30,258 bases of DNA from IMG/VR virus record IMGVR_UViG_3300034103_000314, positions 1 to 30,258 of that record. The stretch is one strand, 5' to 3'. Below the pieces are notes generated by a model. It worked only from the letters and a program-made list of their open reading frames with translations, was not told the origin of the DNA and did no database searches. The translations under genes and the position numbers were made by a program. The DNA comes from a virus. Below are positions 4,006 through 25,983 of the stretch, in pieces (position 1 is the first letter of the stretch; every line of letters begins with the position of its first letter).

Positions 4006-5549
4006 TGGCAGCTCCACTACAAAGTAATAGCATAAGCGCACCAGGCTTTTATGGCCTGAATACGCAAGACTCTCCATTGGATTTGTCTTCTGGTTTTGCT
4101 TTGGTTGCTTCTAATTGCGTGATTGACCAGTATGGACGTATTGGTGCTCGCAAGGGTTATACATTGGTTAATTCTTCATCTGGAAACCTTGGGTCTAACG
4201 ATGTAACTGTTATCCATGAGTTAGTGCAGATTGATGGCACATTGACTGTGTTGTTTGCTGGCAACAATAAGTTGTTCAAACTTGGTACTTCCAATGCTGT
4301 AACTGAGTTGACCTATGGGGGGGGTGGTTCTGCTCCTACCATTAGTGCTAGTAACTGGCATTGTGCTTCTTTGAATGGAATCACTTATTTCTTCCAAACT
4401 GGACACGATCCATTGATTTATGACCCAGCGGTGAGTACTACCACTTATCGCAGAGTTTCTGAGAAGACTGGTTATGTAGGTACTGTTCCACAAGCAAACA
4501 TTTGTATTTCTGCTTTTGGTCGTTTGTGGGTTGCCAATACATCTACTAACAAAGTAACGATTACTTTCTCTGATCTGATTGCAGGTCATGTATGGGGGGG
4601 TGGTACTACTGGTACTTTAGATGTGTCTCGTGTATGGCCTAATGGTTCTGATGAGATCATGGGATTGGCGGCTCACAATGATTTCTTGTTTATCTTTGGT
4701 AAACGACAGATTCTTGTTTACTCTGGTGCAACAACTCCTGCAACGCTTCAGTTAAGTGACACAGTAGGTTCTATTGGATGTATTGCTAGAGATTCTATTC
4801 AGAGTATTGGTACTGATGTAATTTTCTTGTCAGACTCTGGTGTTCGTTCATTGATGAGGACTATCCAAGAGAAGTCTGCTCCTTTGAGAGACATATCTAA
4901 GAATGTTCGTTCTGATTTAATTGGGTCTTTGGCTGTTGAGACATTGGCTAACCTCAAGTCTGTTTACTCAGAGAAGAATGCTTTTTATCTGTTGGTTTTG
5001 CCTACTTCAGCACAAGTCTATTGTTTTGATACAAAGATGCAATTGCAAGATGGGTCTAACAGAGTAACCAAGTGGGATTCCATCACTCCTAAGTCTTTAT
5101 ATGCGCTTAGAAATGGTGATTTGTACATTGGTAAGACTGGATACATTGGTAAGTATGATGGTTACTTAGATAACACATCTACTTATCGGATGGCGTACTA
5201 CACGAACCATGCTGATCTGGGCAATGAGAATCAGATCTCTGTTCTCAAGAGAATCAAGACAATCATCATTGGTGGCTCAAACCAGTTTGTGACGATCAAG
5301 TGGGGATTTGACTTCGCAGCCAATTATCTGTCTGCAAACGCCAACATTGCTACACAATCTATTTCTGAGTATGGAATAGCTGAATATGGGGTTGCTCAGT
5401 ATTCAAGTGGTGTGCTTATCAGAACATTGGATGTGAATGCTTCTGGTATGGGAAAGATTGTTCAAACTGGTTACGAAACTACAATTAACGGCACTCAGTT
5501 GTCAATTCAAAAGATTGAGATTCAATCTAAGAATGGCAAAATTTCGTGA
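4005..5549 (+). CDS. Tail nozzle protein
   Basis: A 514-residue protein beginning MAAPLQSNSISAPGFYGLNT, starting inside the adaptor stop codon (TAATG). It has repeated beta strands in the style of the propeller-fold nozzles of T7 gp12/P22 gp10/SU10 type: an N-terminal LNTQDSPLDLSSGFALVASNC with CVIDQYGRIGARKGY, blade-like repeats (ITYFFQTGHDPLIYD, RLWVANTSTNKVTITFSD, DFLFIFGKRQILVYSG), VIFLSDSGVRSLM, and a C-terminal sheet region. It would form the hexameric tube through which DNA leaves. Runs of eight and seven Gs occur in frame (4317-4324, 4594-4600), encoding Gly-rich loops. The assignment rests on order after the adaptor and on this pattern. Confidence 0.72.
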   Translation: MAAPLQSNSISAPGFYGLNTQDSPLDLSSGFALVASNCVIDQYGRIGARKGYTLVNSSSGNLGSNDVTVIHELVQIDGTLTVLFAGNNKLFKLGTSNAVTELTYGGGGSAPTISASNWHCASLNGITYFFQTGHDPLIYDPAVSTTTYRRVSEKTGYVGTVPQANICISAFGRLWVANTSTNKVTITFSDLIAGHVWGGGTTGTLDVSRVWPNGSDEIMGLAAHNDFLFIFGKRQILVYSGATTPATLQLSDTVGSIGCIARDSIQSIGTDVIFLSDSGVRSLMRTIQEKSAPLRDISKNVRSDLIGSLAVETLANLKSVYSEKNAFYLLVLPTSAQVYCFDTKMQLQDGSNRVTKWDSITPKSLYALRNGDLYIGKTGYIGKYDGYLDNTSTYRMAYYTNHADLGNENQISVLKRIKTIIIGGSNQFVTIKWGFDFAANYLSANANIATQSISEYGIAEYGVAQYSSGVLIRTLDVNASGMGKIVQTGYETTINGTQLSIQKIEIQSKNGKIS

Positions 5550-17826: not shown

Positions 17827-18063
17827 TCAAAATGGCAAATCTTCGTCTGCAAAACTAGCCTTCTTAGGGGCTTGTTTAGGCTGATAATCTTCTTTGGGTG
17901 ACAGTGCTAAACCCATGAATTTGCCTGATTTACCTTCTTTGATCCAAGCAGATAGCCAGTAATCCTGACCATTTACTGTGATATTTCCTTTGTAATCAGG
18001 GTGGTTGCCTGTTTCTTTCTTATCGTTTTTGAACAAAACGCCAGAGTTATCTTTCTTTTCCAT
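17827..18063 (-). CDS. Small SSB-like/DUF736-like protein
   Basis: A 78-residue protein starting MEKKDNSGVLFKNDKKETGN. The run NHPDYKGNITVNGQDYWLSAWIKEG, then GKFMGLALSPKE, matches the small beta-barrel pattern of DUF736-type proteins, which look like short OB-fold units. The last residues, ADEDLPF, mimic the acidic tip of bacterial SSB (DDDIPF), the part that recruits host recombination and replication proteins. It lies just after the ERF gene, sharing one base (TAATG). It probably binds single-stranded DNA together with ERF or competes for host SSB partners. No separate ribosome site is needed if it is coupled. Confidence 0.7.
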   Translation of the reverse strand: MEKKDNSGVLFKNDKKETGNHPDYKGNITVNGQDYWLSAWIKEGKSGKFMGLALSPKEDYQPKQAPKKASFADEDLPF

Positions 18064-18677
18064 TACATTTCCTTCGCTTTCTTTAACGCACTTCTTACTT
18101 TACTTGGAAGGAGTGTCCATAGAGCAATCTTTTGTTGATCGTCTAGGTTCTCTCCCTCTAACTTAACCCAAGCTGCCTTGGGATCACCTTGCTCACAAGT
18201 GGCAATCAGTTCAACTGCCATCTCTTGTAAGTACTGCAATTCTTCTGGAGGAATGTCGTCTGTTGCACCCTGAGTAGGTGTGATGACAACTTTCTCCTCT
18301 TTAAGTGGAGCAGAGGAGTCTAAAGCATCATGCTCAACAATCTCCATTGCAGAAACCCAAAGATAACGCCTGGTATACGTTTCTACTGCACCAAGATTCT
18401 GGATAGGATGACATCCCTTTAGGTTTGCTTCTGCCATAGGGCTTGTCAATTTGATCTCAGATCCATCTTCTGTGTCTGTGATAGTCAATGTTGCTAGTTC
18501 TTTATCGAACGAAACAACACCGCATAAACCAATCTTATAGAAGATTGAATTGATTGTTGGCAAGAAATCACCAAGCTCAAAGTAGGAATACCCTGCGAAC
18601 TTGTTGTGTCCTGACTTTTTGAGAGGTGCGTGTTGCAAGTGAATTCTTGCATCCATCAGTTTCTTATGTACGCCCAT
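18063..18677 (-). CDS. erf: ERF-family single-strand annealing protein
   Basis: A 204-residue protein with AAGGA before its ATG. The N-terminal helix (HKKLMDARIHLQHAPLKKSG) leads into the family core: NKFAGYSYFELGDFLPTINS, then a beta region, and the hallmark QNLGAVETYTRRYLWVSAME (residues 93-112), where the GxxxTYxRRY box is typical of ERF. The C-terminal part is acidic and helical and probably not conserved. It would anneal complementary single strands in phage recombination and concatemer formation, working with the SSB-like protein next to it. There is no exonuclease partner nearby, although RusA is encoded at 21922. Confidence 0.82.
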   Translation of the reverse strand: MGVHKKLMDARIHLQHAPLKKSGHNKFAGYSYFELGDFLPTINSIFYKIGLCGVVSFDKELATLTITDTEDGSEIKLTSPMAEANLKGCHPIQNLGAVETYTRRYLWVSAMEIVEHDALDSSAPLKEEKVVITPTQGATDDIPPEELQYLQEMAVELIATCEQGDPKAAWVKLEGENLDDQQKIALWTLLPSKVRSALKKAKEM

Positions 18678-23944: not shown

Positions 23945-23964
23945 AAAAAACCCTCCGTAGAGGG
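23945..23964 (-). terminator. Terminator of the leftward small-gene cluster
   Basis: On the minus strand CCCTC and GAGGG (23964-23951) form a perfect five-pair stem with a four-base loop, followed by six Ts (23950-23945). It ends leftward transcripts from the 24019-25920 genes before they enter the rightward operon. Confidence 0.75.
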
Positions 23965-24018
23965 CTTGAATTTATCGTTTTGTAAGTATTCGTAAGATTA
24001 GGGCTAATGTTGCATAGA

Positions 24019-24324
24019 TCATTGCATCTCACTTTTTACTTTAAAAGTAGCAAAAAACCAGTTGCAATTTTGCTGACCATATTTTGCAGAATCATGGCGT
24101 AGGTGCATTGGTGGCTTGTCAGACCCTAGTGGGAAATAATAACTGTCAACATTTTCAAATCCCATTTTGTCCAATGTTTTGCACAATTCACCAAATTTTC
24201 CCCTTGCTACAGCCACACATAATTGCCCAGAACCGCCACCTTTGCCAGTTTCACAATCAAGGGCCGTCAATGCACCATAAACTTTAAACCGCACAGTTTC
24301 AGGTAAATCGTAAAATGATTTCAT
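24019..24324 (-). CDS. Protein of unknown function, last of the leftward cluster
   Basis: A 101-residue protein. I chose the ATG at 24324 (MKSFYDLPETVRFKVYGALT), six bases after AAGGGG; a longer frame from 24354 would overlap the previous gene by 20 bases. It looks alpha/beta: a helix (TVRFKVYGALTALDCETGKG), a strand with GGSGQLCVAVARGKFGELCK, then VDSYYFPLGSDKPPMHLRHD and an aromatic end (NWFFATFKVKSEMQ). Three Cys residues are spaced irregularly. No family recognised. It is near the terminator, with no gene following. Confidence 0.6.
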   Translation of the reverse strand: MKSFYDLPETVRFKVYGALTALDCETGKGGGSGQLCVAVARGKFGELCKTLDKMGFENVDSYYFPLGSDKPPMHLRHDSAKYGQQNCNWFFATFKVKSEMQ

Positions 24325-24334
24325 TTTTAGCCCC

Positions 24335-24778
24335 TTAATAAACGCAAATGCCACGGGAATAATAAGAATCTACATTTTTGCCCTCTGGGATATCATCAGG
24401 GCGGATTAAATATAGTGCAGCCCCTCTAGGGTCACCTTGGATATAGGGTTTAATTTCAACTTGTGACATGGGGCAACCTAAAAAAGCCCATTCACGGGTG
24501 TTTCTAAGCCCCAAAATGTGACTGAGCCGCTTTTTACCCCCTTTTTCTCTATCTGCAATGGGTGAAAGTTTGCCTGAGTATTCACTACGCCAAAAAGGTT
24601 TGCCAGCCTCATCCCGTTCAACACACCCGCCATCGATACCGCATTCAAGCTCATGCCATCGTTGCAGGGTCATGCTTATTTTGCGAAGTTTGTCAGCTTC
24701 AAACGCTGTAAAACCTAAGTTTATAAGAGTATTTTCTTGTGCTGTAATGCGCTGCTTTTCCCGTTTTGTCATTGCCAT
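24335..24778 (-). CDS. Phage protein with QGDPRGAALYLIRP motif
   Basis: A 147-residue protein with AGGTGT before its first ATG (24778). The first part is helical (ITAQENTLINLGFTAFEADK, then SMTLQRWHELECGIDGGCVE). The middle is charged and lysine-rich (SPIADREKGGKKRLSHILGL). The end has KPYIQGDPRGAALYLIRPDD. The combination SMTLxRWxELECGxxxG...RDExGKP...QGDPRGxxLY is frequent in phages of many hosts, where it is always uncharacterised. It is the only member of this cluster that I place in a broad family. The QGDPRG loop could be a binding site, but nothing proves it. Confidence 0.68.
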   Translation of the reverse strand: MAMTKREKQRITAQENTLINLGFTAFEADKLRKISMTLQRWHELECGIDGGCVERDEAGKPFWRSEYSGKLSPIADREKGGKKRLSHILGLRNTREWAFLGCPMSQVEIKPYIQGDPRGAALYLIRPDDIPEGKNVDSYYSRGICVY

Positions 24779-24786
24779 ATTGACAC

Positions 24787-24850
24787 CTATAAATTGAAAA
24801 CCTTGGGAAATTCCAAGGCCATAAGCCCTTAAGTTAAGGGCTTACAGTCT
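24787..24850 (-). repeat. Twin-hairpin spacer element, copy B
   Basis: Between the stop of the 24856 gene and the start of the 24335 gene on the leftward transcript. First hairpin: TAAGCCCTTAA/TTAAGGGCTTA (24844-24822), almost a perfect palindrome. Second: CCTTGG/CCAAGG (24818-24801) with a short loop, then TTTT. The ATAGGTGT ribosome site of the next gene follows. Copy A at 25136-25212 has the same plan with different stem bases. Confidence 0.6.
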
Positions 24851-24855
24851 TAAAA

Positions 24856-25131
24856 TTACATTGCGTGAGCAGATAACCAAGCTGGATTAGAAATTGGTTT
24901 CGATTCTTGAACATACCAAAGTTGGCTTATGGGCTTAGATTGTCTGAAATCGCCTTGATGAATTTGCCATGCAACAAAGCCCCTTTTTTGGCATTCTTTT
25001 GCAGATATTTCACCCATGAGCTTTTTAGTGATTCGCCCGTCAAGAATAATCACCGCACGATCACCGCACCCCTCAATAATTCTATTGTGGTCAATGGCGG
25101 AGCGAATAAAGAATTGAGCATAATATTTCAT
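24856..25131 (-). CDS. Small protein of unknown function
   Basis: A 91-residue protein starting MKYYAQFFIRSAIDHNRIIE at 25131, preceded by AATAGGTGTTACATC. That leader, with the start codon, is the same over 22 bases as the one before the 25723 gene. The chain mixes short strands (GDRAVIILDGRITKKLMGEI) and helices (SAKECQKRGFVAWQIHQGDF), with a variable end (WYVQESKPISNPAWLSAHAM). It is of the size of anti-defence or host-takeover proteins, but no family is recognised and no function can be claimed. Confidence 0.58.
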   Translation of the reverse strand: MKYYAQFFIRSAIDHNRIIEGCGDRAVIILDGRITKKLMGEISAKECQKRGFVAWQIHQGDFRQSKPISQLWYVQESKPISNPAWLSAHAM

Positions 25132-25135
25132 GATG

Positions 25136-25212
25136 TAACACCTATTCAAAAAGTTAATGAAACCCTAGTAAAACACTAGGCCAATAGCCCCTAGATCAAG
25201 GGCTATCAGTCT
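25136..25212 (-). repeat. Twin-hairpin spacer element, copy A
   Basis: Between the stop of the 25218 gene and the start of the 24856 gene on the leftward transcript. First hairpin: ATAGCCC/GGGCTAT (25106-25084 side, that is 25206-25184). Second: CCTAGT/ACTAGG (25180-25164), followed by GTTTC. The plan is the same as in copy B, but the stem bases differ in matched pairs (ATAG/CTAT against TAAG/CTTA; CCTAGT/ACTAGG against CCTTGG/CCAAGG). Confidence 0.6.
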
Positions 25213-25217
25213 AAGGT

Positions 25218-25412
25218 TTAGTTTTCAGGATATACCGCTACTGAGGCAAACCCATAATTCCATTGTGCAAGGTTTCCATCTTGCAAAGCATCAAAGGCCC
25301 TAATGATTGTGGCTTGAGTTGCATAAACTTGCAAACGGGCAAACGACAGAGCTTCATTGATAGAAGCAAAGGTTTTTTCAGAATTGCCTTGAACGTGAAC
25401 AATAATTTTCAT
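25218..25412 (-). CDS. Small alpha/beta protein
   Basis: A 64-residue protein, MKIIVHVQGNSEKTFASINE at its start, with TATAGGTGTTCAC before the ATG. It reads as strand-helix-strand-strand: KIIVHVQG, FASINEALSFARLQVYATQA, TIIRAFDALQDGNLAQWNYG and ASVAVYPEN. This resembles a tiny ferredoxin-like or HicB-like half, but no signature residues support either. Function unknown. Confidence 0.56.
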   Translation of the reverse strand: MKIIVHVQGNSEKTFASINEALSFARLQVYATQATIIRAFDALQDGNLAQWNYGFASVAVYPEN

Positions 25413-25443
25413 GTGAACACCTATAAAAAATTGATTGAGAGAA

Positions 25444-25620
25444 TTATTTATATCCGTTTATATAAGGATATACATTAATTGATAATTGTTTTTGATTCAT
25501 GCTACTGCAAAATTCATATGCTTTTTTTAGGGCATCTTCATCATTTGTAGCAAAAACGTGAGGTTCTACAAAAGGCAAATATTCGCCATAGTAGGTAACG
25601 CAACATATGTAGTGTTTCAT
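25444..25620 (-). CDS. Small protein of unknown function
   Basis: A 58-residue protein. Three ATGs in a row follow AAGGGG; I take the third (25620, MKHYICCVTYYGEYLPFVEP), six bases after the site, but 25623 is also possible. It looks like strand-strand-helix-strand: KHYICCVTYYG, PHVFATNDEDALKKAYEFCS, QLSINVYPYINGYK. Its size and plan resemble the 25218 product, so the two could be distant copies. No family recognised. Confidence 0.56.
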   Translation of the reverse strand: MKHYICCVTYYGEYLPFVEPHVFATNDEDALKKAYEFCSSMNQKQLSINVYPYINGYK

Positions 25621-25630
25621 CATCATCCCC

Positions 25631-25726
25631 TTATTTAACCAAAACGTCAAAATAATCCAGTAAACCTATGCAAAGCACAAGGGCTATTGCAAGGGCCGCT
25701 GCATAGTCTAAAAATTGATCGTTCAT
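25631..25726 (-). CDS. Tiny single-span membrane protein
   Basis: A 31-residue protein starting MNDQFLDYAAALAIALVLCI. Residues about 8-24 form one hydrophobic span, with a FDVLVK tail. The ATG is in an ATGA overlap with the gene before and has AGGGG about nine bases upstream. It is far below gene-finding limits, but the overlap and membrane span make it a sensible call. It could disturb or mark the cell membrane. Confidence 0.5.
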   Translation of the reverse strand: MNDQFLDYAAALAIALVLCIGLLDYFDVLVK

Positions 25727-25920
25727 GCTGTAACCCCTAAAATTGAGGGTTTATCGGTGCAAATACACGCAACACGCTGGAATTTTGGTGCATTGTCTAA
25801 TGTACAAGCAATTAGATTGCGGCCCGTGTGTGTGTAGCTTTCAACACGCATTGATTGCCCGTGAACTTGAATAATTTGGCCTATTGTGTATTGGCCCTTA
25901 GGGATAAAAGCAAATTTCAT
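25723..25920 (-). CDS. First protein of the leftward small-gene cluster
   Basis: A 65-residue protein. The ATG at 25920 (MKFAFIPKGQYTIGQIIQVH) follows AATAGGTGTTACATC, the same leader as before the 24856 gene; a longer frame from 25974 would begin inside the promoter. It is beta-rich (GQIIQVHGQSMRVESYTHTG, NLIACTLDNAPKFQRVACIC), like a small barrel. Three Cys residues cluster near the end. Function unknown. Confidence 0.58.
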   Translation of the reverse strand: MKFAFIPKGQYTIGQIIQVHGQSMRVESYTHTGRNLIACTLDNAPKFQRVACICTDKPSILGVTA

Positions 25921-25950
25921 GATGTAACACCTATTTGAGTTGATAAAAGA

Positions 25951-25972
25951 GAGAGCATTTTTTGACCCTCTC
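25951..25972 (-). other. Hairpin in the leader of the leftward cluster
   Basis: GAGAG/CTCTC (25972-25951 on the minus strand) with a 12-base loop, followed by TTTT. It would lie at the very 5' end of the transcript, and like the twin-hairpin spacers it is followed by an AATAGGTGT ribosome site. It may protect the mRNA or act as a leader attenuator. Confidence 0.42.
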
Positions 25973-25983
25973 ACTATATAAGC

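Follow-up and report, generated by a model that had tools for sequence, protein, structure and literature searches.

We observed that the spacers between genes of a phage accessory operon carry a repeated element whose sequence supports well a bistable RNA, in which a long upstream helix and a downstream hairpin compete for one common arm. Each such spacer would be a cis-acting intercistronic RNA of about 60 nt, and in our judgement it is an evenly balanced call whether it acts as a transcription attenuator between the genes of the operon, using the ribosome to sense translation of the upstream gene. The window (the whole stretch of DNA that was analysed, 30,258 bases) was taken to be that of a tailed phage since it carries head, portal, large terminase, tail fibre, spanin, endolysin, Erf-like and RusA-like genes. 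The operon with the elements runs on the minus strand from about 25,974 to a terminator at 23,948-23,967, with the terminase genes on one side and a plus-strand gene block on the other. The accessory operon itself (24019-25974, minus strand) is oriented opposite to both of these neighbours.

Where the window has this operon, related contigs carry ArdC-N-like (PF08401), DUF7222 and clamp-like genes, so the place appears to be a variable slot for accessory or counter-defence genes. The clamp-like protein (206-212 aa; L008 1410-2027 and relatives) has a weak likeness to the DNA polymerase III beta clamp, with PF02767 below the cut-off, and its gene often has one element on each side. The phages are uncultured tailed phages whose relatives are all metagenomic contigs. 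The closest isolate matches of the clamp-like protein were in Burkholderia phages (35% identity) and those of the head protein in cyanophages (32-33% identity); these matches are too distant, and therefore no host could be assigned.

Two copies of the element lie in the window, both on the minus strand. Copy B (25220-25131) is placed between a 64-aa gene (25218-25412, minus strand) and a 91-aa gene (24856-25131, minus strand), while copy A (24858-24776) is placed between the 91-aa gene and a 147-aa gene (24335-24778, minus strand; start codon at 24776-24778). None of the three genes showed a clear family. The order of parts is the same in both copies: a helix, P1, of 12-13 bp, directly followed by hairpin 2 (HP2, 6-7 bp), a short T-run, the Shine-Dalgarno sequence ATAGGTGT and the start codon. 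In copy A, the stop codon TAA of the 91-aa gene (24856-24858) provides with its AA the first two bases of the 5' arm of a third helix, P0. This arm, AATTTTAAG (24849-24857), pairs at 9/9 positions with the 3' arm CTTGGAATT (24809-24817), as covariation also indicates. Between the two arms stands hairpin P1, CTGTAAGCCCTTAACTTAAGGGCTTATGG (24819-24847), which was recognized by folding and covariation. The P0 3' arm overlaps the left arm and loop of hairpin 2, CCTTGG-AATTTC-CCAAGG (24801-24818), which is followed by TTTT (24797-24800) and by ATAGGTGT in the Shine-Dalgarno region of the 147-aa gene (24783-24790). Copy B is built alike, with the AA of the TAA of the 64-aa gene (25218-25220) opening the P0 5' arm AAACCTTAG (25211-25219), 8/9 pairs with CTAGTGTTT (25171-25179), and hairpin P1, CTGATAGCCCTTGATCTAGGGGCTATTGG (25181-25209), again backed by folding and covariation. 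Its P0 3' arm overlaps hairpin 2, CCTAGTG-TTT-TACTAGG (25164-25180), after which come GTTT (25160-25163), ATAGGTGT in the Shine-Dalgarno region of the 91-aa gene (25138-25145) and the start codon (25129-25131).

A preliminary description had reported the same twin-hairpin plan in the gaps before the genes at 24335 and 24856, with matched base changes in both stems. Both elements are where it placed them, the changes that it listed are correct, and sense-strand folding of the two spacers gave -25.9 and -27.0 kcal/mol (z = -3.0 and -2.9 against dinucleotide shuffles). It knew the twin hairpins only, and the element is longer than that, since the 9-nt 5' arm that begins at the upstream stop codon pairs with the left arm of hairpin 2. 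The ribosome-binding region ATAGGTGT is repeated before several genes of the operon (25138-25145, 25415-25424, 24783-24790 and 25927-25934, minus strand), with or without a hairpin element. An extra hairpin, GAGAGGGTC...GCTCTCTC with a T-run, is present at 25949-25972 (minus strand), directly upstream of the Shine-Dalgarno sequence of the first operon gene, and relatives have similar hairpins ahead of their first operon gene (e.g. L003, about 4200-4262).

The 91-aa gene led to eight related contigs, several of them with additional copies, and 71 DNA stretches came from scanning 2.9 million viral contigs for the pattern (63 distinct copies over all loci at that stage). A covariance model then brought in diverged copies in which the P1 sequence is wholly different, e.g. 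AAGGGCATTTTGTGCCCTT, and the core AGACTG...TGGCCT is retained. Two protein-based scans, one with the clamp-like family and one with a 108-aa family, provided loci independent of the element pattern. Altogether we collected 130 distinct main-family elements from viral contigs, so that the two copies described at first, though both real, belong to a set of about 130. There are one to four copies per record of about 29-38 kb, and every mapped copy lies within the same accessory operon. Broken stems beside intact genes were not seen among the collected copies, for which intact stems were required.

The element pattern had no match in 84,980 prokaryote genomes and the clamp-like protein none in prokaryote genome contigs, and a bacterial or prophage origin was rejected on these two results. 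Among isolated phages (50,697 phage records), the 551-nt region and the 147-aa protein had no match and the element itself chance matches only. We also evaluated known RNA families using Rfam 15 and rejected them, as the window gave 0 matches at the gathering score and only chance matches below it, the E-value threshold included. No tRNA was found in the window.

One strand of helix P0 is a 9-nt stretch on the 5' side of P1, which runs from the AA of the upstream stop codon to the G of AGACTG; the other is made of nine bases that include the left arm of hairpin 2. As P0 and HP2 use this one common arm, they are mutually exclusive. In an alignment of such gaps across related phages (60 copies), P0 and P1 together form a long imperfect duplex of 21 pairs with one conserved mismatch, and 95.1% of its cells were paired, compared to 23-60% after sliding by 1-3 columns. 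Changes on both sides were seen in 154 cells, against 51 +/- 6 in shuffles, and ten of the pairs had such changes. (The MAFFT alignment shifts hairpin 2 by one column in some rows, and hairpin 2 was therefore analysed sequence by sequence.) When the P0 arms were permuted among copies, the observed pairing was never reached in 20,000 trials, either with the first set or with the larger set, where P0 was paired at 510/594 positions against 433 +/- 7 after permutation. Since permutation tests ignore shared ancestry, we also relied on the slid control and on the elements of unrelated sequence described below. P0 pairing had not been a search criterion, the elements being found by P1 and HP2, and the core used in the search fixes about two of the nine P0 positions; all 130 elements nevertheless pair at 5/9 positions or more, and 124 at 7/9 or more.

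The shared arm covaries with both of its partners. At the fourth base of the hairpin 2 left arm, the combination of 5' arm, shared arm and right arm was T-A-T in 69 cases, C-G-C in 30 and A-T-A in 15. Because this base covaries with both partners at once, the left arm is held to two alternative partners, which is the signature of a switch. Within P0 of the 130 elements we counted 149 G-U pairs and 19 A-C oppositions. On the opposite strand each G-U would become A-C, and selection therefore seems to act on the RNA of the gene strand and not on a DNA cruciform. The two helices, their exclusion of each other, the covariation and the strand bias can all be read directly in the aligned copies. That structure rather than sequence is under selection, as had been proposed from two copies, is borne out by covariation in both hairpins and in the third helix, and by the same plan in unrelated sequence in other phages.

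The elements also lie where genes have been exchanged. We found 77 pairs of elements that are >93% identical and have unrelated genes on both flanks, and the gene families occur in many neighbour combinations. The homology between the window and L006 starts at the 5' edge of copy B. In L009 the element is absent after the 91-aa gene, and the stop codon TAA leads straight into the ATAGGTGT start region; it is also absent in L112, where the stop of the clamp-like gene closely precedes the start of the next gene. From the near-identical pairs, the many combinations and these element-free junctions, we conclude that the elements sit at module boundaries. At the junction in L009 (2800-2835), TAATTTTTAATAGGTGT resembles two element ends joined, a likeness that may be due to chance because the linkers are T/A-rich.

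The idea of recombination spacers that let genes be swapped as cassettes, one of three functions first offered, thus holds as a description. As an explanation, it would make the elements short blocks of homology at which an annealing recombinase, such as the Erf-like protein encoded at 18063-18677, exchanges accessory genes, with the structure being secondary. We think this quite unlikely. DNA homology needs no compensatory changes, and the elements differ by matched changes instead of being identical; the G-U bias (149:19), the competing third helix and the register of the stop codon would be left unexplained; and unrelated sequences of the same architecture would not recombine with each other. 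As recombination alone needs no competing helices, the place of the elements at gene-swap boundaries is probably a consequence or an added role.

We further examined the position of the upstream stop codon. It was found 5, 4, 2 or 6 nt ahead of the core in 114 of the 120 copies with an upstream frame, regardless of the upstream family, and it was TAA in 111/120, as against 50% in other genes of the same strand. The upstream frames are diverse genes, mostly of about 46-230 aa. A ribosome ending the upstream gene would, by its footprint, cover the entire P0 5' arm. The translated frame is so placed, with the stop 2-6 nt before the core and its AA within the P0 arm, that the ribosome would cover the switching segment. 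This register, too, is visible in the copies themselves.

The same architecture was also searched for irrespective of sequence. A structural finder run earlier over all stop codons was too loose (981 matches, with about 525 expected from shuffles), and an intergenic version was used instead. The stop-anchored three-helix architecture was present in 122 of 1,188 intergenic regions compared to 5 of 5,940 shuffles. Thirteen of the 122 are outside the main family, e.g. L147, L148, L149, L198 and L233; another of the thirteen, L231, was counted as weaker because its start codon falls right at the edge. Upstream of clamp-like genes in L090, L027, L159 and L161 there is a second family of stop-anchored elements, of different sequence, with hairpin 2 around TGCAATGTTGCA or TGCAATAGTGCA.

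The core AGACTG/TGGCCT is near-invariant, being found in 110/130 copies and in 70/88 of the set independent of the search pattern; this invariance comes partly from the search pattern, and the independent 88 had still to match a loose expression for the core and to have intact stems. It is conserved far more than the flanking P1 pairs, which vary freely. Such conservation suggests recognition of the sequence, possibly by a protein, and the attenuator model does not need it. The same bistable RNA might then be switched not by the ribosome but by an RNA-binding protein of the phage or its host, which would recognise the AGACUG/UGGCCU core (C-G, U.G and G.U steps next to an A-C mismatch) and make one of the two forms more stable. 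Several copies per operon would be expected for such a shared regulator. However, we found no protein that could play this part, some phages have this architecture with another core, and the conservation that argues for the protein was in part imposed by the search. We regard a protein-operated switch as unlikely.

We also estimated the energies of the two forms. The mean was -24.1 kcal/mol for the HP2 form and -21.0 kcal/mol for the P0 form, a gap of about 3 kcal/mol. When copies A and B were folded as growing chains, P0+P1 was predicted at 52-60 nt, with a flip to HP2 at 64 nt. At equilibrium most copies favoured the HP2 form whether the 5' arm was included or not, and any switch must therefore be kinetic or factor-dependent. 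The terminator score of HP2 was above 0 in 40% of copies compared to 2% of control hairpins. Its mean was -4.4, and the conventional terminator hairpin that closes the operon (23948-23967, minus strand), our yardstick, scored +20.6. The tail of HP2 is T-rich, but its U-run is short (3-5 T). As the U-run is short and the score marginal, HP2 may merely pause the polymerase or act otherwise. Both the order of folding and the weak terminator strength are thus model estimates from energies and scores. A marginal score suits an attenuator better than a full stop, and it is the weakest link of the argument.

The weak likeness of HP2 to a terminator could mean that the elements are simple weak terminators which grade expression along the operon, with P0 as a by-product of repeated sequence. 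This seems to us very improbable, since at several positions the P0 5' arm and the shared arm have changed together, the stop codon keeps its register, and P0 is found again where the sequence is unrelated. RNA processing or stability was another of the functions first offered: the long P0+P1 hairpin or the twin hairpins would be cut by an RNase or would block exonucleases, so that the message of each gene is separated and protected. The long imperfect duplex with its conserved mismatch and the intergenic position would suit this, but the need of one arm for two partners and the T-rich tail would not be accounted for, and we consider it improbable. Transcription attenuation fits best among the three functions offered, given the mutually exclusive helices and the weakly terminator-like HP2.

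In the attenuator that we propose, the element would have four segments. Segment 1 would be the P0 5' arm, whose first bases are the AA of the UAA that ends the upstream gene; segment 2, hairpin P1, would always be formed; segment 3, the shared arm, would pair with either segment 1 or segment 4; and segment 4 would comprise the right arm of hairpin 2 and the short U-run. Pairing of segments 3 and 1 would stack P0 on P1 in an antiterminator-like form, the first to be made during transcription. Pairing of segments 3 and 4 would give hairpin 2, a weak terminator or pause hairpin that, after segment 4 has been made, is predicted to be the more stable form by about 3 kcal/mol. A ribosome completing the upstream gene would sit on segment 1, hairpin 2 would form promptly, and RNA polymerase would tend to stop or pause before the next gene; with no ribosome on segment 1, P0 would delay hairpin 2 and transcription would read through. 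As the two folds are mutually exclusive, the element probably controls expression of the next operon gene. Termination in the cell, the sensing by ribosomes and the direction of the effect are what we infer from this arrangement.

We also compared the element with known systems. Gene cassettes of integrons carry attC sites with conserved GTTRRRY/RYYYAAC cores. These were absent from the consensus of the 60 copies, which has AGACTG...TGGCCT, and the element is thus not an attC site by its consensus. The put-type antitermination RNA of phage HK022 is formed of twin hairpins that make the polymerase ignore terminators, and our elements may resemble it. A literature search for intercistronic attenuators and put RNA gave no match.

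The trp/his attenuators have four RNA segments and a nearby stop codon, and one segment can enter either of two structures of similar stability, an antiterminator or a terminator (PMC1183508). The phage element likewise has terminator-like and antiterminator-like helices that exclude each other and share one arm, and a stop codon close by. However, in place of a short leader peptide that carries regulatory codons it has a whole upstream gene as its translated frame, it is intergenic and repeated within one operon, its stop codon is inside the antiterminator-like arm, and the U-run of its terminator-like hairpin is short. The nearest phage analogue is the SAS/ESAS of cluster K mycobacteriophages, in which an inverted repeat with a ribosome-binding-site motif recurs just ahead of many small genes that are non-structural and belong to different families (PMC3203893). 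Our element is also repeated upstream of small genes of different families, but it differs in sequence and in its anchoring to stop codons; the 13-bp SAS, GGGATAGGAGCCC, is not the repeat here, the start-proximal repeat being ATAGGTGT. Departures among the ESAS repeats do not support RNA pairing according to their authors (PMC3203893), whereas the phage element shows matched pairing changes in P0, P1 and HP2. Mosaic phages are known to have short conserved boundary sequences between swapped genes (PMC3029335, as a concept), and our elements are such conserved short blocks, although with strand-specific competing helices that simple homology blocks do not need.

Tentatively, and with more doubt than confidence, we suggest that these elements may represent a new class of phage riboregulator, in which the upstream stop codon is part of the antiterminator and an accessory gene is transcribed less when translation of the one before it has been completed. 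If this is true, the several copies per operon would be gene-by-gene valves, moving together with the gene cassettes that are exchanged. The element would, in addition, be a compact and sequence-flexible attenuator, for which compensatory mutants allow direct tests. The accessory genes of phages, here near ArdC-like anti-restriction, DUF7222 and clamp-like genes, are constantly swapped, and how newcomers come under control has been unclear. A portable RNA element that fits any stop codon and sets the expression of the next gene would answer this.
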